Of a stretch of 64,000 nucleotides of DNA, positions 3,419 to 54,379 are shown in pieces (position 1 is the stretch's first letter; each line of letters starts with the position of its first letter). The notes under the pieces are model-generated. The model did not search any database and had not been told where the DNA came from. It saw nothing but the letters and a program-made list of their open reading frames with translations. The DNA is from Deroplatys truncata (Eukaryota; Arthropoda; Insecta; Mantodea; Mantidae). The stretch lies in contig CM060979.1 of NCBI GenBank assembly GCA_030765065.1, forward strand, positions 103,094,350-103,158,349. Direction: 5' to 3'. Position numbers and translations under genes: made by a program.

Positions 3419-3727
3419 TGGAATATTCACTACAAAGACTCGAAGCTTTAATACTTTTCGAAATTTCATAAAAATACGCCAACAGAGAATCTTCATTTAC
3501 GTCTTGTTCATTACCCACACTGCATTCCTTGAATTTCTATAACTACATAAATAAACTTTCCTTCACTTTTCTGGAATATTCACTCCAAAGACACGAAGCT
3601 TTAATACTTTTCGAACATTTCATAAAAATACGCCAACAAAGAATCTTCATTTACGTCTGCTTCATTATTCACACAGCAGTCCTTGAACTTCCATAACCAC
3701 ATAAATAAATTTTCCTTGACTTTTCTG
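3419..3727. repeat. 153-bp tandem duplication within the recombinase pseudogene
   Basis: Two adjacent units begin with GAATATTCACT (3421 and 3574) and share CGAAGCTTTAATACTTTTCG, AAAAATACGCCAACA and AATCTTCATTTACGTCT. They differ at several positions, so the duplication is not recent. It repeats the coding segment holding EDSLLAYFYE. Confidence 0.85.
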
Positions 3728-3902
3728 GAAGTGTATTAATAATTGCATCTTGGGCTGCATTTAAAATTTTTCCTGATGAATCGTAAAAATCCCCTTCTTC
3801 GCTCATATTTATTTTAAATTCACATATGAAACTAATACCCAAAATTGCAGAATATAACAACAAAGTTTGTTGATTTATCGTGTCTTTTATTCCAAAACCC
3901 AC

Positions 3903-5052: not shown

Positions 5053-5402
5053 AAAGAGAGAGTGTGAAAAGCCAGCAGAGGGAGAGAGTGAGAATAGACG
5101 ATGGAATGAAAACAGAGAGAGAGGGAGAAAGAAAGGGGAAGAGAAAGACGGATTGAGTGGGTAAAAGGAAGTGGGAGACGTTGACAAAATGAGAGAAGGA
5201 ACCGCATGGAGTAGAATCTCTTACAAAAAGAGAGAGGGATGGTGAAAAGGCAGGAGAGGGAGAGAGTGCGAAGGAGACGGAATGAAAAGGGAGAGAGAGG
5301 GAGAAAGAAGGTTTGAGAGGGAGAGAAAGATGGATTGAGGGGGAAAGAGGAAGTGGAAGACATTGAGAAAATGAGAGAGGGAGCGGCATAGAGTAGAATC
5401 TC
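5053..5402 (+). repeat. Purine-rich (GA) tandem duplication, about 180-bp units
   Basis: Almost all purine on the plus strand. Two units follow one another, each opening with a GAGAGAGGGA/GAGAGAGTGTGA run and closing with GAGTAGAATCTC (near 5208-5219 and 5391-5402). Long reading frames on the minus strand here are serine/leucine/proline-rich products of the CT repeat, not genes. Confidence 0.85.
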
Positions 5403-5782
5403 CGCATTTGACGCAATAAACCGAACAGGGCTAGTTTTGCTAATATGTATTATTTAAAAAAAGCACTAGGTAGATACAGTGCGGTCGTTTTTTGATGACA
5501 CCACGGGCTGCGCTTATGCGTGCTCAGCACACTGTTTATTATACTGGGGTTTTTCGTTCCGTAACTCCCGGACTGCTTACTCATGAGTGACAGTAACATG
5601 CACTATGATGCGTACTAACCTTGTTTTAAGTAGCGTATATAACACATATACACTATGTGATCAAAAGTATCTGACACCTCACAAACATACGTTTTTCATC
5701 TTAGGTGCGTTGTGTTGCCACCTACTGCCTGGCACTCAATATCCGCGACCTCAGTAGTCATTAGACATCGTGAAACAGCAGA

Positions 5783-7817
5783 ATGGAACGCTCCGTGGAA
5801 TTCACGGACTTCGAACGTGGTGAGGTGATTGGGTGTCACTTGTGTCAGAAGTCTGTACGCGAGATTTCCACACTCGTAAACATCCCTAGGTCCACTGTTT
5901 CTGATGTGATAGTGAAGTGGAAACGTGAAGGGACATGTATAGCACAAAAGCGTACAGGTCGACCTCGTCTGTTGACTGACAGGGACCGCCGACATTTGAA
6001 GAGGGTAGTAAAGAGTAATATGCAGACATCTATCCAGACCATAACACAGGAATTCCAAACTGCATCAGGATCCACTCCAAGTTGCGATGGTATTATGATT
6101 GTTTTGTTAGCCCCACGTTTGGGTAGCCAATTTGCTGGTGTATTACTTATAATGTTTGTGTATTTGTGTTTACTTCACGCGTTGAAGCCATCTTGTGACG
6201 TGATTCATTTGTTAGGTTTATTAGCTCCATCTGGTGTTAGCAATTTGCGGCAGTATTAGTTTTTGTTTGAAAGAATTTTACTTTTATTTTTTATTTAATT
6301 CTGTTTCACTGTCCTCCGGCTAGCTATTATCTTATTTTGGGTCGAGCACTTCTCTTTATACAGGTTGTGTAAACGGAAAGGAATCTTTTATCCAAAGAGA
6401 ACACTGATGAAGAAATTTGCTTTACACTTTTATTGTCGAACACGTTAACTATCACATTTATACATTGATCTTAACACTCGCCAAACTGAAACTGTTATAA
6501 CAACTTCTTACTAATCACTTTTAATCCACGTACTTCAACCTTTTATATAATTAACTTTACCATACTTGAGAATTTTCATAACTCTGTTACGCGTAACCTG
6601 CAAATTGATATCCGAAGTGTGCCGTACAAATACTTTCGAGAACTGATGGGAATGCGACGTGTAGTGTACAAAGAATGTTGATGAACTGACGGACTTTACC
6701 TCTAACCTACCCTATTTATACTCCTACACACCGATATGCCTAAAGATTATAACTGAACTGCAATTGGCTAATAAAACGCGCCAACATTAGCGTGTATTTT
6801 TATATCCAATGAAAATTATGAATACATATGCTCTAGGGAAACGTTCCAGAAGATTCTCAAGGAAAAACGCGCCAACATTACTTCCTCGTTTCCAATAATG
6901 ATAAACAGCTTACCCCCTCGCTGCATTATTGCGCGCTATTATTGTCAGTTTCAGTAAGGCAGTATAAACTTACTTCCCAACAATAATTACAATCAATAAA
7001 CATCTCAAATCAATGTCACATAAAAATGCATATTCATATTACAATCATTATTTACATTTAAGTAATTTGTGATACAAATTACTGCATCAAAGTACTAGGA
7101 CAATTAGGCGTGAAGTGAGAAACCTTGGATTCCATGGTCGAGCGGCTGCTCATAAGCCACACATCACGCAGGAAAATGCCAAACGACGCCTCGCTTGGTG
7201 TAAGGAGCGTCAACATTACACGATTGAACAGTGGCAAAACGTTGTGTGGAGTGACGAATCACGATACACAATGTGGGGATCCGATGGCAGGATGTGGGTA
7301 TGGCGAATGCCCGGTGAACGTCATCTGTCAGCGTGTGTAGTGCCAACAGTGAAATTCGGAGGTGGTGGTCTTATGGTGTGGTCGTGTTTTTCCTGGAGGG
7401 GGCTTGCACCCCATGTTGTTTTGCGTGACATGATCACAGCGCAGACCTACATTGATATTTTAAGCACCTTCTTGCTTCCCACTGTTGAAGAGCAATTCGG
7501 GGATGGCGATTGCATCTTTCAACACGATCAAGCACCTGTTCATACTGCACGGGCTGTAGTGGAGTGGTTACACGACAATAACATCTCTGTAATGTACTGG
7601 CCTGCACAGAGTTCTGACTTGAATCCTATAGAACACTTTTGGGATGTTTTGGAACGGCGACTTCGCGACAGGCCTCACCGACCTACATCGATACTTCTCC
7701 TCAGTTCCGCACTCGTGAAGAATGGGCTGTCAAGAAACCTTCCAGCACCTGACTGAAATTATGCCTGCGAGAGTGAACGCTGTCATCAAGGCTAGGGGTA
7801 GGCCAACACCATATTGA
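5783..7817 (+). pseudogene. Tc1-like DD34E transposase, split by a solo LTR and frameshifted
   Basis: This enzyme would cut and paste the surrounding element. The N-terminal half (5783-6082) starts MERSVEFTDFERGEVIG and carries the paired helix-turn-helix DNA-binding region, with the linker motif GRPRLLTDRD. The C-terminal half (from 7091) carries the DDE catalytic domain: D in WSDESRY, D in QHDQAPVH, and E in SDLNPIEHFW, with exactly 34 residues between the second D and the E. The codon interrupted by the LTR is restored in frame if the LTR and one copy of its AAGT duplication are ignored. A frameshift near 7690-7740 moves the end into another frame, where FQHLTEIMPARVNAVIKAR leads to the stop at 7815-7817. 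The copy is inactive because of the LTR and the frameshift. Confidence 0.93.
6083..7089 (+). mobile_element. Solo LTR (LTR-1) with 4-bp target duplication AAGT
   Basis: The insert begins TGCGATGG and ends TGCATCA, the TG...CA ends of long terminal repeats. AAGT flanks both sides (6079-6082 and 7090-7093). No internal retrotransposon sequence remains, so it is a solo LTR left by recombination between two LTRs. A 4-bp duplication fits Ty3/Gypsy-type integration, though the clade cannot be proven. A related copy lies at 1245-2067. Orientation is arbitrary, set by the TG end. Confidence 0.9.
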
Positions 7818-8912: not shown

Positions 8913-9579
8913 ATGTATGTATGCTATGTATATATGTACGTTATACATATATGTATTATGTGTCATTTTTGCAAACCAGTAACACAGATTAGGAATACAC
9001 TCTGGGAAAGAAAGAAATAGTAACTAAAAAACAAGAAATATATAAAAATTCTTATGTGCAAAAGTCAAGGCACGTATTATGTCCTGTGGTAATCCCCAAC
9101 TATCGTTTATACATTTTACATTATTAATATTCTAGTGATAACAGACTCTTCTCTGCCCTTAAGCTTAATTGCGATAAAAGGTTATGTAGAAATCCTATCA
9201 TATTAGCAATACCGACTTGATTAAATAAAATACATAAGCAGCAACTGATCATATTATAATTAACTAAACACAAAAAAAGAATCTAACGTGGTTATCAATT
9301 CAGACTTCAGCTTGGAAAGGTTTAAATAGTATACATTAACACATGTTTTTTAGAAAAAGCTACACTACAAAAATCCCCTGAATTAAATTGTATGCTTTGA
9401 TACCTTCTACATTATCCCCGTAGTTTTTCTATATATGTTATTGTTTCCAGTTCTAGAAAATTCAAAAGAGTGAAAAGAATTTCACATATTATTTACAGAA
9501 AATGAAGTATATACATTTCTTTGTCAGATAACTATCTTAAATATGCGATATTTGAATCAATGTCGTTGTAAGATATTTA
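8913..9579. other. TATGTA-rich stretch and AT-rich spacer
   Basis: 8900-8965 is an imperfect TATGTA/ACGTAT repeat. The rest shows nothing recognisable. Confidence 0.4.
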
Positions 9580-10412
9580 CTTTTTCTACCACGTACATAG
9601 TAGGTAGAGAAGGTATTGCATTCCACCCAAAATTCGATATCGAGTATCCAAATGAAGTATTTTTTAGAAAAATGTCTGTGTGTCTGTGCCTGTGTATCTA
9701 TGAACAACATAACTGAAAAATAAAAAGTTGAATAAATACCCAACTTGGTATTTAGATTCAGAATCTTTCAAAGATGCGACACAGAGATTTTCAAGAAAAT
9801 CCCCCACCCTAAACTACCCTTTACATGGAATTTTTTTTTGAAATTCCTGATTTTCTAAAAAATTGCTCTAATGAGTTTAATTAAAATACCGCATGTAAAA
9901 TATATTTATTTGTGAAATAAAATGTATGTCTTGAATTTTCTGGGGATAACCTATTTAGTCTTCTTCATTCGGAAGTAATTATGTAATTGGAAAACGTTAA
10001 GTGATAGACCAAAACTACTGCACAAAAAATGTGAATCTCTTTAAAACACAATTTATTCAAATAAGAATTGTTTTGTGATGGGCTATTTCTGAGATATGCG
10101 TTATTAAAGGTTCGAATTGTTCATTTCTTGGTCATTCTCTTAAGTCCTGTCAACATTCAGTTGTTTGTCAGGATCGCATGGAAACGGTATGGAATTTTAA
10201 GGTTAACATGTAGCGTTCAGTTCTCAAACATTTGACTAGCGCTGTTCCCAATGTATCTATAACAAAATGTGTAATGTAGCTATTTCTGCAAAGGTTTGTT
10301 TGTATTAGAATGAAGTAAAAAATAAGCTATAGTAAGAATAGTTTGTGTACCCACTAATAAACTATAGAAGGTAGAGAATGCCATGTGAATGTATTACATC
10401 AGAGTCTTGTGA
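9580..10412 (-). repeat. Family A repeat, diverged full-length copy
   Basis: The minus strand holds the family's parts in order: a 5' end (CACATGGCATTCTCTACC near 10380-10400), the central block, a shrunken CA-rich microsatellite (9675-9700) and the TGGAATGCAATACC...TCTCTACC 3' end at 9580-9630. Divergence from the younger copies is high. A small related fragment (TTTTGGGTGGAATGCAATAC) lies at 10688-10710. Confidence 0.7.
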
Positions 10413-10794
10413 GAAATAAGACTATAAGCGAAATATTTAAGGTACTGAGAATATTTAATAAATTTTCACCTTGTAATCTCCAAAGGTCTCTGACTTAGCT
10501 ATGAAATTTGAGGCTTAATCTACTTTGTTATTAAGTTATTCTGTTTGTAGATAAACTTACTCACAAGACATATAAAACTAGGCATACACAAAACATGGCA
10601 TACACATTCACGAACCTGTTTCTAAAAATGACTTCTTTTCCCGTGGGACCTCAAAACGTGTATTTCCATTAAACCTTCTATATCTAATTTTGGGTGGAAT
10701 GCAATACTTGCTTTATATCATATGTAAGCGATAGAGAAAGTGCAAAGCCCGGATGCTGTATTTTAATGTATAAAGAGATAAGAAATCTAACGTA

Positions 10795-11470
10795 GACTCT
10801 CTCTCCTCGTGTAACATGATCTGCACTGCAATTAGGATACCACTCTCTTTCCCTATCGTCTCACCTGCAGCTAGGATACGTCTCTCTCTCCTCGTCTCAC
10901 ATGATCTGCACTGAGTTAGGATACCACTCTCTCTCCCTCCCGTCTCACCTGCAGCTAGGATACGTCTCTCTCTCCTCGTGTCACATGATCTGCACGGAGT
11001 TAGGATACCACTCTCTCTCTCCTCGTCTTACATGATCTGCACTGTAGTTATGATACCAGTCTCTCTCTCTCTCTCTCTCCTTCTTGTCTCACATGTTCTG
11101 CACTGCAATTAGGATACCACTCTCTCTCTCCTCGTCTTACATGATCTGCACTGTAGTTATGATACCAGTCTCTCTCTCTCTCCTCGTCTCACATGATCTG
11201 CAGAGTTAGGATACCACTCTCTCTCTCCTCGTCTTACATGATCTGCACTGTAGTTATGATACCAGTCTCTCTCTCTCTCTCCTTCTTGTCTCACATGTTC
11301 TGCACTGCAATTAGGATACCATTTTCTTTCCTTCTCGCCTCACATCTTCTGCTCTGTAGTTACGATACCATTCTCTTTCCTTCTCGTCTCACTCGTTATG
11401 CAATGCAGTTAGGATACCATCTCTCTCCTTCTTGTTTCACATGTTCTGCATTCAGTTAGGATACCACCTC
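10795..11470 (+). repeat. CT-rich minisatellite, about 14 units of 37-62 bp
   Basis: Each unit combines a run of CTCTCTCT with CCTCGTCTCACATGATCTGC, then ACTGCAGTTAGGATACCA. Unit length varies mainly with the CT run and with a deletion of ATGATCTGC in some units. Units alternate in type: GATCTGCACTGTAGTTATGATACCAG recurs as every second unit near 11030, 11145 and 11240, giving a higher-order dimer of about 100 bp. Units near the right end are more diverged. The reading frame at 11193-11459 is a by-product. Confidence 0.95.
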
Positions 11471-12365
11471 TCATACAGCCGAAGGGTTTCGCGCAAACTT
11501 GGTTGCTTCACTAATGAATACAAGCAATGTTTTGAATGCCTAATGCTTGTATTTGTACACATTTTTCGTATTCGTAAGCATTATCCATCACTTTGGAACT
11601 ATGTCGCATAATCATAATTGCAATTTTTTCATCTGGGCCTCACCCCTATGTCAAAAGATTCTTTGATTTACGGATCATTTGACTCATTTCTGTAAATATT
11701 ACAACTCAGAAGTCTGTCTTACGCTAAATTTTATCCACGTTCTTGTCAACTCTCCATAAAATTCTACGTGGAAAACTGCGCAAAACCTTAAATTTTCAAA
11801 ATGCCGTTTTACTTCCCAAAACTTCGAGGGGTAATATATTTTATGGCCTCTTGGATTATAAATATTCAGGAAATTGTTAGGATATGCATCCGCAGGTCTG
11901 AAATGTAATAGTCAAAAACGAATAGTCGGACATACCGAAGTTCGTACTTAAGTAAGGTATCCTTTAAGGATGCGAGGCGAAGAGTTTCAGGGCATTCCAC
12001 TTACATCAAACATCTCTTTAAGTGGACTATTTTCCGTTCCATTTTGCTATCTCAGAAATTGTTTTAAATGATTTTATTTACTATGCAATATAGTTAGTAT
12101 AATTCTATGATAAACCGAATATTTTGAAGTCATATTCAATAGCTAGTCTTCTCGTTTTAATGAATTTATAACAGGGGAAACAGTAAAAGTTAGGATAGAA
12201 ATAGAACTCATTAAAACATACCTTTTGAATGAAATTAAATCTCTGTGGCAATTATTTATGAGAAAATTTCACAGGTATTCGTTTAGAGTCTCTACGTTTC
12301 AGCGGTTTCTCTAAAATGTGGAGCGCTCGTATGTTGTTTTTCTAGTTTTTTTAGAATTATTCAAC
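11471..12365. other. No recognisable feature
   Basis: AT-rich sequence; no ORF or shared repeat that I recognise with confidence. Confidence 0.35.
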
Positions 12366-18039: not shown

Positions 18040-18902
18040 TTATACTTTGTCTACTACGTATAGTAAGTAGGGGAAGTATAGTATTCCACCCAAAAATTCA
18101 ATACCGAGATTTCACCGGAAATACATGTTTTGAGATCCCCTGAATTCAAAAAAAGCATTTTTGGAAACATGCCCGTGTGTGTGTCTGTCTGTGAACAGCA
18201 TAACTCAGAAACGAACAGTCGGATAAACACCAAACTTGGTATTTAGGTTCAGTATCTTCCAGAGCTGCGACACGAAGGTTTTCAAGATAATCCCCACCCC
18301 AGATTACCCTTTACATGGAACATTTTTCGAACATTTTAATTTTCTCAAGAATGGCTCTAACGATTTTGATTAAAATATCATATGTTTAAGATATTTTCAT
18401 GACAAATAAAATGTATATCTTGAATTTTCTGGGAATGTCTCCAAAAGTATTCTTCATTGTAAACGACTTTTGCATAACTGGTACACCATAAGAGATAGAC
18501 AAAATTTTACTACACAAAAAATGTAGATCGCGTTAAAATACACAATTTATGTCAGATACATTTTTTTGTTGAGTGAACCATTTTCGAGATATTGCTTGTT
18601 ATTCCCTTAAATTTTTCAATACTTATTTTCTCAAATGGGAATTCGTTATTCATTTTTTGTCTTGGATATGCAAAGAGTATTAATCTGTGGCAAAGGGAGT
18701 GGTGCTGCACCTAGCAACCAGCTATTAAGAGATACGTATGTGCTTAAAGGCTGCTGTATTTCTATATTGTCCTTGTAAATATATATTCCCCTTACATCTA
18801 CAAGAAACGAGTCTGCAAATGTTTATCTCGATTAACATGAAGTAGATGGAGATTGAGCGTTTGTAAAAATAGTTTTACAAGAGTAGAGAAAGTCATGTGA
18901 AT
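18040..18902 (-). repeat. Family A repeat, near full-length copy
   Basis: This is a minus-strand copy of the element described at 52530-53434. The 3' end is at the left (CTACTACGTATAGTAAGTAG, 18051-18070) and the 5' end at the right (AGTAGAGAAAGTCATGTGAA). The internal CA microsatellite is short here (18175-18195). Its youngest parts are highly similar to the plus-strand copies at 25327, 33562 and 52530. Confidence 0.88.
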
Positions 18903-24645: not shown

Positions 24646-25326
24646 TGATTATAGAACGGAAAAAAATCTTGAATTAAACTAAGGTGTTGTTGTCTGTGTC
24701 TACAAAATATTTTGTATTAATGTATAGTTTTTATTTTATAAATTGGAGAAGATAATCGAAATACAATGGCTGGTCGTAGATCAGCTTAGGGGTAACGCTG
24801 GTGCTTTCATCAGTTTAACAGATAGCTACCTTTTAAAGCTATTGTATCATCATTTAACTACAATTAACTCCTTTTCTGTTTTTATTTATGCTGCCTTTGG
24901 AAGTTTCTGTAAGGTTTTCTTAAGTTTAAGATTAGACTTGCTTTCATTTCCATGTTTTCATTACCTCACTGCCACGAAACGATTTAGTTTTAAGCAACAA
25001 AATGTCTCTCTGAAAGTGAGCAACAATTTTGATACTTTATTTGGTAGTAAAATGTGCAATTTTCTCAATTCTCAGCATTTTCTAATTATTCTTGATCATG
25101 GGTGTATAATAATAGTAATATTAAATACATAATGGACTACCCTGAAACTAAACATTGTATTTTTCACGTTCTTATTTGTATGTTTGTAATGTATGTATGT
25201 TCATTGTTTTTTTCACGCAAGAATGATGATGCAGATTATGAAATTTGATTTGTAACACACCTTAGGTCCCACTTAAAAATTGCCTTTCACTAAGTGGGAG
25301 ATTCTAATGAAGTGCAAAATAAACAC
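24646..25326. other. No recognisable feature
   Basis: It holds a 129-residue plus-strand ORF (24743-25132) without a recognisable domain. Composition is typical of chance frames. Confidence 0.3.
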
Positions 25327-26557
25327 TCTGATGTGTTACACTCACATGACTTTCTCTACTCTTGTACAAACTATTTTTACAAACGCTTATTCTCCATATG
25401 CTTCATGTTAAACGAGATATCGAGATGTCAATCTTATTGCTAATTTTCTTGTAGATGCAAGGGGAATTGGTAGGCTTTAAGCTATAGTCATATCTTTCAA
25501 GCGCATTCCATTCTCTTTTCATGTCCAGGACAAAAAAAATCTGATGTGTTACACTCACATGACTTTCTCTACTCTTGTACAAATAATTTTTACAAACGCT
25601 TACTCTCCCTCTACTTCATGTTCATCGAGATAAACATTTGCAGACTCTATCTTATTACTACTTTTCTTGTAGATGTAAGGGGAATATATATTTACAAGGA
25701 CAGTACTCTTGTACAAACTATTTTTACAAACGCTTACTCTCCCTCTACTTCATGTTAATCGAGATAAACATTTGCAGACTCTATCTTATTACTACTTTTC
25801 TTGTAGATGTAAGGGGAATATATATTTACAAGGGCAGTATCGAAATAAAGTAGCCTTTAAGCACATACAATTCTCTTAATAGCTGGTTGCTAGGTGCAGC
25901 ACCATTCCCTTTCCCACAGATTAATACTCTTTGCATATCCAAGACAAAAAAATGAATAACGAATTCCCATTTGAGAAAATAAGTATTGAAAAATTTAAGG
26001 GAATAACAAGTAATATCTCGAAAATGGTTCACTCAACAAAAAAATGTATGACATAAATTGTGTATTTTAACGCGATCTACATTTTTGTGTAGTAAAAGTT
26101 TGTCTATCTCTTATGGTTTACGAGTTATGCAAAAGTCGTTCACAATAAAGAATACTTTTGGAGACATTCCCAGGAAATTCATGATATACATTTTATTTGT
26201 CATAAAAATATCTTAAACATATGATATTTTAATCAAAATCGTTAGAGCCATTTTTGAGAAAATTAAAAGTTTCGAAAAATTTTCCATGTAAAGGGTACTC
26301 TGGGGTAGAGGATTTTGTTGAAAACCTTCCTGTCGAATCTCTGGAAGATACTGAACCTAAATACCAAGTTTGGTGTTTATCCGACTGTTCGTTTCTGAGT
26401 TATGCTGTTCACAGACACACACGGACATGTTTCCAAAAATGCTTTTTTTGGATTCAGGGGATCTCAAAACATGTATTTTCGGTGAAATCTCGGTATCGAA
26501 TTTTTGGGTGGAATACAATACTTCCCCTACTTACTATACGTAGTAGAGAAAGTAAAA
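25327..26557 (+). repeat. Family A repeat with triplicated 5' end
   Basis: Three successive 5' ends are joined to one body. The first begins TCTGATGTGTTACACTCACA at 25327. The second begins at about 25541. The third begins inside the motif at CTCTTGTACAAACTATTTTT near 25708. The segment from there to the ATTTACAAGG motif is nearly identical in the second and third. The body then runs through the block beginning ATGAATAACGAATTCC (25951), a short CA stretch (26413-26430) and the 3' hairpin, to GTAGAGAAAGTAAAAA at 26557. ORFs here are by-products. Confidence 0.9.
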
Positions 26558-26796
26558 ATGAATAACGAATTTGCGAAAAAGCATAAGTATTAGAAAATTT
26601 AAGGAAATACCAAGCAATATCTCGAAAATGGTTCACTCAACAAAAAAAACGTATATGACATAAATTGTGTATCTTAACGCGATCTACATTGTTTATGTAA
26701 TAAAATTTTGTGTATCTCTTATGGTTTACCAGTTATGCAATGTCATCACAATGAAGAATACTTTTGCTTCCTCTACTTACAGTAGAGGAAGCAAAA
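26558..26796 (+). repeat. Family A, truncated second tandem unit ending in a palindrome
   Basis: The unit restarts at ATGAATAACGAATTTG, the same internal point at which the second unit of the 52530-54095 array starts. It stops early and closes with a perfect 16-bp inverted repeat, TTTTGCTTCCTCTACT (26762-26777) and its complement (26781-26796), separated by TAC. Confidence 0.85.
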
Positions 26797-29770: not shown

Positions 29771-30054
29771 GAGTTTTACTATGGGATAGGCAGCTGATTA
29801 GTTTTCACTTTTGTCCTTTGAATGCTGATTTCCTTTTCATCAGTAAACCTCTGCATTGCAATGTAACAAATATCATAAGTAGGTTATTTTCACCATATTC
29901 AAGTTAGGTTTTTCCAATTCCTAGCACTCCAAACTGAGCAGTTTAGGAACTCAACTTGCGGCTGAAAGTATCAATAAAGGAAAATACATTTAGTATATTT
30001 AACATACATTTGATGTCATATTCACATGGCTTTCAGTAGCCATTGTACTTTATT

Positions 30055-30830
30055 TTAAAATCGAATGCAAAAGCTTGTTTTTCTATCTACTTCGTGTTAA
30101 CAGAATAAACGTTTACAAAAATAGTTTTAGGTTGTAGGCTCAAGGGAATAGTCTTTAAAAAGCGGGTCGCTATATGAAGGCTTTGAAACTCCATACTCTT
30201 TCCAAGTAACAACTGAATAGTGACATCCCTTCAAAAAATATAAAGTATTGAAAAATTGAAATACCAATAACAATAAATATCTTGGAAATGCCACATGTCA
30301 CAAAAAATGTATTTGAAATAAATTCTCTGTAAAAAGCTCCTAGCTCTTTTTCTACTGTCTTATGGTTTCCAGTTGTACAAAATTATACAAAACTAATTCC
30401 AAATGAAGTGGATTACAGAGGCTATTTAGAAAATATTCAGGATCTAAATATTGAATTTAATCAAAATTCTTAAGAGCCCTTTTTGAGAAAATCAAAAATA
30501 AGGATTCTTTTTCATGTAAACGTAAATTGTTGCGCAGGTCTTTTCTTTGAAATCTTGGAGTCATATCTGGGAACATCCTGAACTTAAACCCCAAGTTTGG
30601 TATTTATCCGACTTTTCTACTTTGAGTTTGCTATTCACACACACACATATGCAGGAATAGTGTTTAGTCTGCAGAAAAGCTCTTTACACAGATGTAAATA
30701 TTTTCTGGATTAAGGGGATCTCAAAACATGAATTTTAGAAGAAATCGGGGTATCAAATTTTAGGGTGGAGTGGAACATTTCTCTAACATCTACTATAAGC
30801 ACGTGCTAGAGAAAGTTAAAATGTAATCTT
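30055..30830 (+). repeat. Family A repeat, diverged copy
   Basis: Family landmarks in order: TTCGTGTTAACAGAATAAAC, the GGAAATGCC...CAAAAAATGTATTTGAAATAAATT block, CATGTAAACG, a CA stretch (30637-30650), and the end AGGGTGGAGTGGAACATTTC...GCTAGAGAAAGTTAAAATG. Confidence 0.7.
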
Positions 30831-33411: not shown

Positions 33412-33561
33412 ACTCACATGACTTTCTCTACTGACAATTATTCCAACTATTCTTACAATAAATTACTCATATCTATTTCTTGTTAATACAGATAAACTTC
33501 CACATTAACATGCATAACTCGCAAACGTTAAGCGATAAACGAAAGCGTACTACACAAAAAA
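33412..33561 (+). repeat. Family A repeat, 5' fragment
   Basis: Starts ACTCACATGACTTTCTCTAC and continues through an eroded head. It ends in CTACACAAAAAA, directly where the younger copy at 33562 starts. Confidence 0.65.
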
Positions 33562-34482
33562 TCTGATGTGTTACACTCACATGACTTTCTCTACTCTTGT
33601 ACAAACTATTTTTACAAACGCTTATTCTCCATCTACTTCATGTTAATCGAGATAAATATTTGAGGACTGTATCTTATTGCTAATTTTCTTGTAGATTTAA
33701 GGGGAGTATATATCTACAAGGGCAGTATCGAAATACAGTAGCCTTTAAGCACATACATATCTCTTAATAGCTGGTTGCTAGGTGCAGCACTATTCCCTTT
33801 TCCACAGATTAATACTCTTTGCATATCCAAGACAAAAAAAATGAATAACTCCCATTTGAGAAAACAAGTATTGAAAAATTTAAGGGAATAACAAGCAATA
33901 TCTCGAAAATGGTTCGCTCAACAACAAAAATGTATATGACATAAATTGTGTATTTTAACGCGATCTACATCTTTTGTGTAGTAAACTTTTGTCTATCTCT
34001 TATGGTTTACCAGTTATGCAAAAGTCGTTCACAATGAAGAATACTTTTGGAGACATTCCCAGAAAATTCAAGATATACATTTTATTTGTCATAAAAATAT
34101 CCTAAACATATGATATTTTAATCAAAATCGTTAGAGCCATTTTTGAGAAAATTAAAATTTTCGAAAAATGTTCAATGTAAAGGGTAATCTGGGGTGGGGG
34201 TACTTTCTTTAAAATTCGTGTCGCATCTCTGGAAGATACTGAACCTAAATACCAAGTTTGGTGTTTATCAGACTGTTCGTTTCTGAGTTATGCTGATCAC
34301 AGACAGACAGACAGACACGCAGACAGACACACAGACCCACACATGGACATGTTTCCAAAAATGCTTTTTTTTTGGATTCAGGGGATCTCAAAACATGTAT
34401 TTCCGGTGAAATCTCGGTATCGAATTTTTGGGTGGAATACAATATTTCCCCTACTTACTATACGTAGTAGAGAAAGTAAAAA
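33562..34482 (+). repeat. Family A repeat, full-length copy
   Basis: A 921-bp copy from TCTGATGTGTTACACTCACA to AGTAGAGAAAGTAAAAA. It carries the ACTTTCTCTACT / AGTAGAGAAAGT inverted repeats near its ends, a CAGA/CA microsatellite (34297-34345) and the 3' hairpin CTACTTACTATACGTAGTAG. It inserted at the A-run of an older copy of the same family. Confidence 0.92.
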
Positions 34483-34858
34483 TGTAGATCAAATTAAAAC
34501 ACACAATTTATTTTAAATAAGTTTTTTGTTGAATAAGCCATTTCTGAGATATCCGTTATTAAAGGTTCAAATCCTTCATTTCTTGGTCACTCTCTTAAAA
34601 TTCCTTTCAACATTCAGGTGTTTCTCTCGATTGCATGGGATCAGTGTGGAATGTTAAGGTCGGCAAATAGCGTCCAGTTCTTAAACATTTGATTATCGCT
34701 GTTCTCTGTATCAATAACAAAATTTGTAATGTAGCTATTTCTATAAAGGTTTGTTTGGATTAAAATGTAGTAAATAGAAAAATAAGCTTTAGTAAGATTA
34801 GTTTGCATACCCATGATAAACGATAGGGGGTAGAGAAGGTCATGTGAATGTATCACAT
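34483..34858 (-). repeat. Family A repeat, inverted 5' half
   Basis: The minus strand gives the 5' end (rightmost: GTCATGTGAATGTATCACATCAG) and the first half of the repeat. It is placed head-to-tail inverted against the plus copy at 33562-34482. Confidence 0.75.
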
Positions 34859-34892
34859 CAGATTTTTTAAAATTTTGTTAATGATATTTAAC

Positions 34893-35385: not shown

Positions 35386-35751
35386 GTACCTACATCAAAA
35401 TGCATAGTGAAGGTTTATCTCTATTAAAAGGAAGTAGACAGAGTAGTAATCTTTTGTAAGAATGGTTTGTAGAAGAACGAGTAGAGACAGTCTATAATGT
35501 TGCACAGACTTTCTCAAACGCTAAGTTGCGTTTCGTTTCTTTCTCGTTCTCATGCAAAGAGAACAGACTTTTAAAGGCATCACATACCGACCCGCATAGT
35601 GACTATCACACAAGCATAATAAATTCTCCTTGTACTTACAATGAAATATGTAGTAAAAACATTTCTGCAAAATACGTTTGTCAGATAAAAGAATAAACTT
35701 TGTAAGAGTTTGTAGAGAAAGTCATATGAATATAACACAAATTTTAATTTT

Positions 35752-37072: not shown

Positions 37073-37344
37073 TTTAAGTCTTGTAACCGTTCAGTTGTTT
37101 CTCACGATGTCATGGAAACGCCAGTATATAGCGACACGTTTTTTCGCTTATATCTTCTGTATCCCCTTTGTACCTATAACGAAATATGTAGTGTATTTCC
37201 CAAACGTTTATCTTGATTAACATATAGTAGATATAAAAATAAACTTTTGCAACAATAGTTTGTAGAGGCTATATAAAAATAAATTCCTAATGGCTAGTGA
37301 AAGTCACGTGAATTGTACAACAAAAGATTTAGTTTAGTTTCTCT

Positions 37345-48590: not shown

Positions 48591-49988
48591 CACCCGTCGT
48601 TTGTGAAAATTGCAACGCCAAGAAAGAAACGCATGAATTCAATTAATTTAATACCACCGGTTAAGTAACAAATGATAATCTTTTCAAATCTATACATGAC
48701 CTTTGAGCCCTAATACTCAGTATTTGTGTGGCCTCCATTCGCTGCAATTATAGCTGCTATACGCCGTGGTATTGAATCAAAAAAATTCTGAATAACTTCC
48801 TGAGGGATTTCCCTCCACGCAGTTTGTATTGGAGCCCACAAATCCGTGACACTGGTTACTGGAGGACCGTGACGCACCAGGTGCCGACTAACCATATTCC
48901 AGACATGTTCGATGGGCGACATGTCAGGCGAACGTGCAGGCCAGGGAAGCAATGTCACCCGTCGCTCTTCAAAGAAGGCTTGTACATTCCTCGCAATATG
49001 TGGCCGGGCATTGTCCTGTTGAAATGTGGCCTGTAGAGATGCCTGAAGCAGGGGGAGTACCTCGAGTACCTCAGGCTCTACAGCCACCTTAGGTACCGCT
49101 TGCTGTTCAAAGTGCCCTCAATTTGTAGGAGGCTAGATCGGTTGTTGTAACCAATGGCGCCCCAAACCATCACACCTGGTGTTTGTCCGCTATGCCGCTC
49201 AACAATGCAACCTCCAGGTTCGCTCACCACGGTACCGCCGTACACTATGCGGCCATCACTATAGGACACGTTGAAGCGGAACTCGTCCGAAAGGACTACA
49301 TTTTGCCACTCAGCACCCCAGTGACGGTGTTCACGTGCCCATTGCAGTCGGAGGAGTTTGTGGTTTCTGGAAAATTGAAGCCAACGTAATGGCATGCACA
49401 ATCATTCCAACCTTCAGCAGACGGCAACGAACCGTTGATGCAGACAAGTTCACACCTGTTGCAGTGCTCCAGCGTCGAGCCAACACTGTAGATGAAGCTG
49501 TACGGTCCGTTATGGCCATGCGGACAAGTTGACGGTCATTGTGTGCTGTGGTTATGTTCCGTGGTCCAATATTCGCTCTTCGCTGTGTACGACCTTCATC
49601 TACCCACTGCTTCCACACACGCATCACTGTCGTAGCAGCATGCCTTGTACGAGCCGAAATGTCACGGTATGACAAACCCGCTTCCCGGAGACCGATCATT
49701 CTTCCTCGTTCGAACTCACTCACATGCCGATATGACCCCCTGTATCGTTGACGAGGCATACTGGCACTCACCTTATTGCTTCCACCTTGTTTAACAGCTC
49801 TGCACTGACTACACAGAGCGCAACACTAAGCTTGTCGGATCGACACGAGAGAACTCTGCTCGGCCTACGTGTACCCTATCTCTCTGCAAATCTAATCAGT
49901 TTTTGCTTGTACACTCTTCTACACTTCCACCAAGTTTGGAGTTATTCGGGAAATTCTTTTTTGGTGTTGCAATTTTCACAAACGGCAG
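48591..49988 (-). mobile_element. Tc1-like transposon, second family, nearly full length
   Basis: Both ends carry GTTTGTGAAAATTGCAAC (left at about 48599, right in reverse from about 49983), flanked by TA (48589-48590 and 49989-49990). The outermost bases differ slightly between the ends (CACCCGTC versus CTGCC). Length is 1,398 bp. It is not closely similar to the Tc1 at 5651-7899. Confidence 0.9.
48710..49771 (-). pseudogene. Tc1-like DD34E transposase with frameshifts
   Basis: The N-terminal frame starts at 49771 (MSASMPRQRYRGSYRHVSEF). It holds the helix-turn-helix DNA-binding region (SYRDISARTRHAATTVMRVW) and a second helical part ending near LSASTVRCRLLKVG. A shift near 49400 moves to a frame with LSDEFRFNVSYSDGR, the first catalytic D, and GVMVWGAIGYNNRS. 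Another shift near 49080 leads to the last frame with QQDNARPHIARNVQAFFEE, the second D, and SPDMSPIEHVW, with 34 residues between that D and the catalytic E. It stops after GGHTNTEY. All catalytic residues survive, and only a few indels separate it from an open gene, so this copy is younger than most others here. Confidence 0.93.
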
Positions 49989-52083: not shown

Positions 52084-52529
52084 CAGTTATTCAGTCGCGT
52101 ATGTGCAGTATAAATTACGATTTGTTCAAAACAAAAGTGCTAAAATGTGCTAAGCGAGGTGCTTAAGGAGAAAGGGAAAATAAAAACTATACTATGAAAT
52201 ACTTCAATAAGTCTTACCTTAATCGTTTCATTGGTGAATTACAATGCGGTGTAACGTGCTGAAATAAGCCTTCAAAGGCCAAATGATGCTATAATATCAC
52301 TTTTAACAGAAAAATACCCCTTCCACTCAATATATGCAGTCCCAAAGCACACAGTCTGATATAAAGCTAGACATTTAAAATATTTTATTAGTTAACATTT
52401 AAAGTGCAGTTTAAAAATCTGTTTTTTTTCTAAAACTAAAAGACATGCAATATAGGATAAATGATATAAGTTTAAGAAAGAAAAAATTCATATTATATGT
52501 ACATTTTAGATTTATTATAAATAAAAAAA
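52080..52529. other. No recognisable feature
   Basis: AT-rich spacer. Confidence 0.35.
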
Positions 52530-53434
52530 TCTGATGTGTTACACTCACATAACTTTCCCTACTCTTGTACAAACTATTTTTACAAACGCTTATTCTCCAT
52601 CTAGTTCATGTTAATCGAGATAAACTTTTGCAGACCCTATCATATTGCTAATTTTCTTGTAGATGTAGGGGAAAATATATTTACAAGGGCAATATAGAAA
52701 AACAGTAGCCTTTAAGCACATATATATCTCTTAATAGCTGGTTGCTAGGTGCAGCACCATTCCCTTTGCCACAGATTATAACTCTTTGCATATCCAAGAC
52801 AAAAAATGAATAACGAATTCCCATTTGAGAAAATAAGTATTGAAAAATTTAAGGGAATAACAAGTAATATCTCGAAAATGGTTCACTCAACAAAAAAATG
52901 TATATGACATAAATTGTGTATTTTAACGCGATCTATATTTTTTGTGTAGTACCATTTTGTCTATCTCTTATGGTTTACCAGTTATGCAAAAGTCGTTCAC
53001 AATAAAGAATACTTTTGGAGACATTCCCAGAAAATTCAAGATATACATTTTATTTGCCATAAAAATATCTTAAACATATGATATTTTAATCACAATCGTT
53101 AGAGCCATTTTTGAGAAAATTAAAATTTTCGAAAAATCTTCCATGTAAAGGGTACTCTGGGGTGGGGGGATTTTCTTGAAAACCTTCGTGTCGCATCCTT
53201 GGAAGATACTGAACCCAAATACCAAGTTTGGTGTTTATCCGACTGTTCGTTTCTGAGTTATGCTGTTCACAGACACACACACAGACACACAGACACACAC
53301 ACGGACATGTTTCAAAAAATGCTTTTTTTGGATTCAGGGGGTCTCAAAACATGTATTTCCGGTGAAATCTCGGTATCGAAATTTTGGGTGGAATACAATA
53401 CTTCCCCTACTTACTATACGTAGTAGAGAAGGTA
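52530..53434 (+). repeat. Family A repeat, reference copy (first unit of tandem array)
   Basis: Structure in order: start TCTGATGTGTTACACTCACA, the outer inverted repeat ACTTTCCCTACT, head block CAAACTATTTTTACAAACGC...GTTAATCGAGATAAAC, CTCTTAATAGCTGGTTGCTAG, internal restart point ATGAATAACG (52806), TATCTCGAAAATGGTTCACT, AAAATCGTTAGAGCCATTTT, CA microsatellite (53270-53302), GTGAAATCTCGGTATCG, the near-palindrome CTACTTACTATACGTAGTAG, and the closing AGTAGAGAAGGTAAAAA. No coding capacity is apparent. Inverted repeats near the ends, an internal microsatellite, a 3' hairpin and tandem copies recall HINE/DINE-1-type (Helentron) elements. Confidence 0.9.
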
Positions 53435-54095
53435 AAAATGAATAACGCATTTGAGAAAAAGTATAAGTATTGGAAAATTTAAGGAAATAACAAGCAATAT
53501 CTCGAAAACGGTTCCCTCAACAAAAAAATGTATATGACATAAGATGTGTATTTTAACGCGATCTACATTTTTTGTGTAGTGAAATTTTGTCTATCTCTTA
53601 TGGTTTACCAGTTATGCAAAAGTCGTTCACAATGAAGAATACTTTTGGAGACATTCCCAGAAAATTCGAGATATACATTTCATTTCTCATGACATTATCT
53701 TAAAGATATGATATTTTCATCAAAATCGTTAGAGCCATTTTTGAGAAAATTAAAATTTTCGAAAAATCTTACATGTAAAGGGTAGTCTGGGGTGGGGGGA
53801 TTTTCTTGAAAACCTTCGTGTCGCATCTCTGGAAGATACTGAACCTAAATACCAAGTTTGGTGCTTATCCGACTGTTCGTTTTTGAGTTATGCTGTTCAC
53901 AGACACACACACAGACACACTCACACACACACAAACACACACACACAGACACACACACGGACATGTTTCCAAAAATGCTTTTTTTTGGATTCAGGAGGTC
54001 TCAAAACATGTATTTCCGGCGAAATCTCGGTATCGAATTTTTGGGTGGAATGCAATACTTCCCCTACTTACTATACGTAGTAGAGAAAGTAAAAA
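53435..54095 (+). repeat. Family A repeat, second tandem unit
   Basis: Repeats the block from ATGAATAACG (53438) to the AGTAGAGAAAGTAAAAA end, so the array period is 632 bp at the start point. The CA microsatellite is longer here (53899-53960). The 5' head (52530-52805) is not repeated. ORFs in both units translate the microsatellite into histidine/threonine runs. Confidence 0.92.
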
Positions 54096-54379
54096 GTTAA
54101 TGAATTATTTGGCTCAAGCCCCGACACGTTTTCACCTAAATAGAAAGGAAATAAAAACTAATAACTATACGAAAAATGTAAAGTGTAGCTATTTTTATAG
54201 AGATGTTAGATGTTGAGAAATGATTACTTTTGTGTTTCTGCAACTTCTGAGCATTCTTCAGTTCTCTTAATTTAGTATTTTAGAATAGAATTATTTATAC
54301 CAGGCAACGGTAATTACACCACTTTTGAGCGAAGGACAGCTTGCCGATGCAGTAGGTTTTCAACGATTCAAAGTGGATA

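Follow-up and report, generated by a model that had tools for sequence, protein, structure and literature searches.

A DINE-1-like non-coding repeat family in the mantis Deroplatys truncata: strand, anatomy and nested copies

DINE-1 elements, as portrayed in PMC2374699 and PMC4067079, carry an inverted repeat beside the 5′ subTIR and a block A with a microsatellite near the 5′ end, and the former source adds an internal 3′ subTIR followed by a stem-loop, the lack of an ORF and T-rich targets. Canonical Helitrons are described in PMC2374699 as being without subTIRs and as having CTRR at the 3′ terminus. Here we describe a repeat family from a 64,000-nucleotide stretch of Deroplatys truncata (GCA_030765065.1, contig CM060979.1, positions 103,094,350 to 103,158,349), hereafter the window, which judged by its anatomy is a HINE family of DINE-1 type and would be an added family if it is unnamed. 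Like DINE-1/INE-1 of Drosophila, as described in PMC2374699, the repeat combines a 5′ subTIR and an adjacent partial inverted repeat with a 5′ microsatellite block, an internal 3′ subTIR, a putative stem-loop past the 3′ subTIR, no ORF and T-rich targets, a likeness of layout and core words rather than of alignment to full DINE-1 or the 90-bp core. It differs in its subTIR, the 12-bp ACTTTCTCTACT as against the 13-bp ATACCCGTTACTC and others of Table 1 in that paper, in a weaker 3′ stem of 5 bp (published, 7-11) and in a TG/TCTG microsatellite. With the HINEs of Metaseiulus occidentalis and Culex, as PMC4067079 presents them, it shares subTIRs, a candidate 3′ palindrome and no clear target modification, and with HINEs in the same text it shares flanking Ts whose count varies among copies; unlike here, the subTIRs of those HINEs are themselves palindromic. 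The mite HINE families, in the portion of PMC4067079 that covers them, are without the core and the separate inverted repeat, and their 3′ subTIR lies 38-60 bp from the end, compared with 22 here. The same paper cites DINE-1-like elements from Lepidoptera and Hemiptera, which by description are likewise non-coding and in some cases contain microsatellites.

The earlier note on this DNA had called the repeat abundant, with about fifteen copies of very different ages, and this description is borne out. A profile built from five copies, that at 52530-53433 included, returned 31 nhmmer segments at a cut-off of E 0.01, which cover 11,440 bases (11.4 kb) of the window and merge by hand into approximately 20 copies, so that "about fifteen" was a fair count. 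ACTTTCTCTACT occurs 43 times with up to two mismatches, every match in the window being counted whether inside or outside the family, against 7.99 expected, and none of 100 shuffles reaches 43. The young full or near-full copies (18043-18902, 25540-26553, 33562-34477 and 52530-53433) measure 860-1014 bp, and over ungapped columns their mutual identity is 93.3-95.1%. Older stretches are mostly about 60-78% identical to the query, with some short older stretches and the copy at 25317-25466 at about 85%, and old full copies are present at 9578-10402 and 30014-30816. Two-copy tandem repeats of 154 and 182 bp, at 3419-3730 and 5064-5402, have no match to the family profile, and an imperfect, CTCTCTC-rich tandem array with units of about 47-49 bp and longer periods of 84, 97, 154 and 202 lies at 10797-11472.

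Layout of the 52.5-54.1 kb locus and strand of the element

The locus consists of one full copy and one partial copy, head to tail, and its layout, given below, is observed directly. The tandem arrangement had been seen in the earlier note, as had inverted 12-mers near the ends, which are present as ACTTTCCCTACT at 52552 (one mismatch) with the exact inverse at 54079.

52530..53433, minus strand: full-length DINE-1/HINE-like copy, 904 bp, 5′ end at 53433 and 3′ end at 52530; nhmmer 1100.8 bits (from a model that this copy, as one of five sequences, helped to build), model positions 3-907
53434..54090, minus strand: 5′ part of a second copy, 657 bp; nhmmer model positions 275-907
54057..54090, minus strand: 5′ subTIR ACTTTCTCTACT and inverted partner AGTAGGGGAAGT, a hairpin, of the partial copy
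53400..53433, minus strand: 5′ subTIR ACCTTCTCTACT and inverted partner of the full copy
53253..53309, minus strand: core CATGTCCG-(TG/TCTG)n-TGAACAGCATAACTCAG with microsatellite, near the true 5′ end; compared with INE-1 primers in PMC5624886 (primer text)
52552..52563, minus strand: 3′ subTIR AGTAGGGAAAGT, one change from the consensus
52530..52551, minus strand: 22-nt 3′ terminal stretch with the small hairpin ATGTG-AGTGTAA-CACAT and the end CAGA
52523..52529, minus strand: 3′ flanking T-run (A7 on the plus strand)

The element belongs on the minus strand, and the 5′ and 3′ ends assigned in the earlier note have to be exchanged. This reading follows from the terminal 5′ subTIR with its partner, the internal 3′ 12-mer, the 5′ core and flanks that are T-runs and not A-runs. 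Just one end, the right one in the plus-strand reading, has ACTTTCTCTACT at its terminus, followed there by the inverted partner AGTAGGGGAAGT; in young copies the 5′ subTIR is terminal and the 3′ subTIR internal. All 12 of the 5′ ends could be aligned, as could 10 of 13 3′ ends, those at 18902, 33408 and 37314 standing outside the alignment with their hairpin stretch cut or altered. By eye, 22 nt lie outside the 3′ subTIR in nine of the ten aligned 3′ ends, and in young copies this stretch contains ATGTG-AGTGTAA-CACAT. The palindromic segment that the earlier note placed at the 3′ end is thus real but is not 3′: it is the 5′ subTIR with its inverted partner, and the 3′ hairpin stands at what was there the left end.

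Compared with 200 shuffles each, the fold of the 5′ hairpin is better than 193 (z -2.44), and in an old copy the homologous stretch is better than 197 (z -2.95). Over the 12 aligned ends 83.5% of cells in the 5′ stem are paired, against 41-57% when the stem is slid; neither this share nor the covariation exceeds shuffles of the 3′ letters, 64 of 500 having as high a share and 73 of 500 reaching the covariation score, and covariation was dropped as proof of the stem on the latter count. The 3′ hairpin, with a 5-bp stem, occupies the position of the DINE-1 3′ stem-loop; 88 of 200 shuffles fold as well, against 7 of 200 for that of an old copy.

Reading on the minus strand places the core words CATGTCCG, the repeat, TGAAC and CTCAG near the 5′ end, like block A. 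A CA-type microsatellite, also listed in the earlier note, is present at 53268-53307 and 53898-53958, its unit being mainly TG/TCTG and not strictly GTCY. The INE-1 primers printed in PMC5624886 read GGCCATGTCCGTCTGTCC and TATGAACGCGTCGATCTCAG and have the words CATGTCCG, TGAAC and CTCAG in common with the family core; in open-licence PMC text the core stretches, as printed, match only these primers. The strict core pattern, which as one picked after viewing both sequences is support and not a blind test, occurs in 0 of 20,000 random sequences of equal composition. When one change at most is allowed per anchor, it is found in five of five young copies, and the relaxed pattern is found in no older copy of the window and in one chance match outside the family.

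Flanking T-runs and target sites

The T-runs that border the element, and its insertions at T-runs within relatives, are read directly from the window. The three intact young copies have T5 ahead of the 5′ end and T6-T8 past the 3′ end. Inspected by eye, T5 stands directly at five of 12 5′ ends (26554, 34478, 38403, 53434 and 54091) and T6-T8 directly at four of 13 3′ ends (25541, 33563, 34861 and 52531), with Ts after one intervening base at two further 3′ ends; the clean-ended copies at 25328 and 10402 lack a T-run on the 3′ side. T-runs are thus usual in young intact copies without being a strict rule. The copies that bear most on the target sites are as follows.

25540..26553, minus strand: full copy lying inside a same-orientation copy, at an internal T-run of the latter, outer parts 25328-25537 and 26554-26766
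33562..34477, minus strand: full copy at a T-run of an older opposite-orientation copy, outer parts 34478-34861 and 33511-33566
18043..18902, plus strand: near-full copy without most of the 3′ hairpin
9578..10402, plus strand: old full copy nested in an old opposite-orientation copy, outer parts 9353-9567 and 10496-10741

The copy at 33562-34477 interrupts its older relative, the two sides reading GATCTACATTTTT and TTTTTTGTGTAG; at this place the intact copy 18043-18902 has GATCTACATTTTTTGTGTAG. That at 25540-26553 interrupts another copy at CGTTATTCATTTTT / TTTTTTTTGTCC, and intact copies have T6 to T8 there. Both of these nested insertions are bordered by T5 at one side and by T6 or T8 at the opposite one, which exceeds the intact kin by about 5-7 Ts. 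The extra Ts are either borne by the element or a T-only duplication, and homopolymers fit either. No mixed-sequence target duplication was seen by eye in the five two-ended copies (9578, 25540, 30014, 33562 and 52530), whose flanks are Ts or unlike bases. Consistent target duplications of 2-9 bp, which the earlier note had named as the mark of a classical inverted-repeat transposon, were not seen in these five copies, although a T-only duplication would still fit.

Class of the family and coding capacity

We consider it very probable that the family is a non-autonomous, DINE-1-like one (HINE), moved in trans by a Helentron-type Rep-helicase encoded elsewhere. The class proposed in the earlier note, DINE-1/HINE or non-autonomous Helentron, fits the anatomy, and what failed was its direction, the element having been read backwards. 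In this scheme a Rep-helicase partner of Helentron type elsewhere in the genome would act in trans, and rolling-circle copying would start at ACTTTCTC, end past the 3′ hairpin and insert the copy between Ts; both the partner and the single-strand rolling-circle copying are steps that we infer.

A MITE, here a short DNA transposon that moves by cut and paste, has inverted repeats and duplicates only Ts at its target, would account for the inverted 12-mers near both ends and for the surplus Ts at both nested insertions, which are as a T-only duplication would give. We regard it as unlikely, in that only one of the inverted repeats is terminal, the other lying inside the end by the 22 nt noted above in nine of ten aligned 3′ ends, no mixed-sequence duplicate flanks the five two-ended copies on inspection by eye, and neither a 5′ inverted partner nor a DINE-1-like core would be expected of such an element. 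The plus-strand orientation of the earlier note would suit a derivative of a canonical Helitron, with a TC start and a hairpin near the right end, and indeed the left end so read begins TCTGATG and the palindrome stands near the right end; the right end, however, is GTAGAGAAAGT and not CTRR, neither orientation has both TC and CTRR, and subTIRs such as those seen here are absent from canonical Helitrons. Canonical Helitrons target an A-T step, whereas the targets here are A/T homopolymers, and we hold this derivation to be very improbable. In the same orientation several copies end in an A-run, with five As after GT at the right end of young copies (after AT in one), as a SINE or other retrocopy might. 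In the three intact young copies, though, A-runs stand on both sides and the left end is precise, the element ends are related by inversion and ARAGORN, which detects intact genes only, found no tRNA in the window, so that a retrocopy is hardly credible. The SINE and canonical Helitron readings were both set aside. The DINE-1-like reading would add one family with the DINE-1 layout and leave the picture of Helentron biology unchanged; its orientation, now fixed, is needed for finding the Rep-helicase partner and for correct annotation.

The absence of coding capacity, also claimed in the earlier note, holds at the locus: the longest stop-to-stop frames that overlap it are 108 and 109 aa, run through the microsatellite and in the second case extend past the element, and there is no stop-to-stop frame of at least 120 aa. 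Seventeen stop-to-stop frames of at least 120 aa occur in the window, frames open at its ends being excluded, and in all 17 no Rep-helicase Pfam domain was found at E 0.01; Tc1/mariner-type transposase fragments are among them. An autonomous element with the family ends was not seen in the window. The exact 21-base 5′-end pattern had no match in viral_contigs and the 35-base core pattern none in genome_contigs, and blastn of 52800-54100 against phages and of 52530-53440 against plasmids gave none either; few matches were to be expected from collections made up of prokaryotes, phages, plasmids and viral contigs. In open-licence PMC text the 12-mers, as printed, retrieved only papers unrelated by title, and Helentron together with cockroach retrieved nothing. 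Broken Tc1/mariner-type transposase frames lie at 5774-7756 (plus strand) and 48710-49825 (minus strand), both with DDE_3 above the Pfam cut-off; HTH_Tnp_Tc3_2 is above the cut-off in the former and just below it in the latter, and the Sleeping Beauty-type HTH is below the cut-off in frames of this type.

Nested copies, clusters and the paired copy

Seven of the 12 identifiable 5′ ends adjoin kin: five (9578, 26554, 34478, 38403 and 53434) stand against internal stretches of a family member, and two (35748, by eye, and 37339) directly against the 3′ end of a different copy. Set against the 86 of 420 A/T-runs of at least five that lie in other family copies, at least seven of 12 has a P of 0.0045, a rough figure in that the rule was set post hoc, ancestry may be shared, not all targets are runs of five and old copies faced a different background. 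The nested copies show that T-runs borne by the elements can make them targets of one another, and with such runs both inside and at the ends of family members, nested and head-to-tail clusters would result. Old head-to-tail junctions, 3′ to 5′ across a short T-rich stretch, are found at 35748 and 37314-37339. It is possible, if doubtful, that the clusters stem not from insertion at T-runs but from local tandem duplication or from missed rolling-circle termination, the latter being discussed for Helitrons in PMC4067079, and this would be compatible with the DINE-1-like reading. The junctions at 35748 and 37339, where the 3′ end of one copy meets the next 5′ end with little between, speak for it. 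At 25540-26553, 33562-34477 and 9578-10402, however, both parts of the outer copy flank the inner one, twice in opposite orientation, and the presence of both outer parts at these three sites means insertion and not duplication.

At 52.5-54.1 kb the partial copy 53434-54090 stops at its own internal T-run, where the full copy starts, and the outer copy at 25.5 kb is broken at this same T-run. The outer copy does not resume beyond the full copy, where a T-run is followed by unrelated sequence. The best reading of the pair is that an inner copy sits in the T-run of an outer one and that the two may have moved together. Copying of 52530-54090 would have begun at the outer 5′ end and stopped at the 3′ end reached first, which belongs to the inner copy, and the outer 3′ part would have been lost because copying ended there. 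The outcome would look no different had the outer 3′ part been deleted, and one favoured T-run may also have been hit by two independent insertions. The two partial outer copies, at 52.5-54.1 kb and 25.5-26.8 kb, have subfamily differences in common and are 90.1% alike; over the same columns the partial copy 53434-54090 is 88.6-90.6% identical to the four full copies and the piece at 26.6 kb 85.2-87.7%, so that the 90.1% does not separate the outer copies from the full ones and descent from the 25.5-kb locus is left unsettled by the identities.

On the reading of the pair as a carried inner copy, we tentatively suggest that the family could spread in part by composite transposition, through a mobile dimer such as 52530-54090. 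An inner copy would land in a relative, at a favoured T-run inside it, and a new mobile dimer would then arise by rolling-circle copying that starts at the outer 5′ end and finishes at the inner 3′ end. At 25.5-26.8 kb the same outer subfamily is broken at that T-run too, and a similar but older junction is present at 38.4 kb. If this suggestion is true, self-targeting would be a built-in route to tandem arrays of such elements. Finally, the 3′ part of the copy at 25540-26553 contains a 134-bp tandem duplication with 97% matches (25570-25839) that may resemble the central repeats found in some DINE-1 elements.
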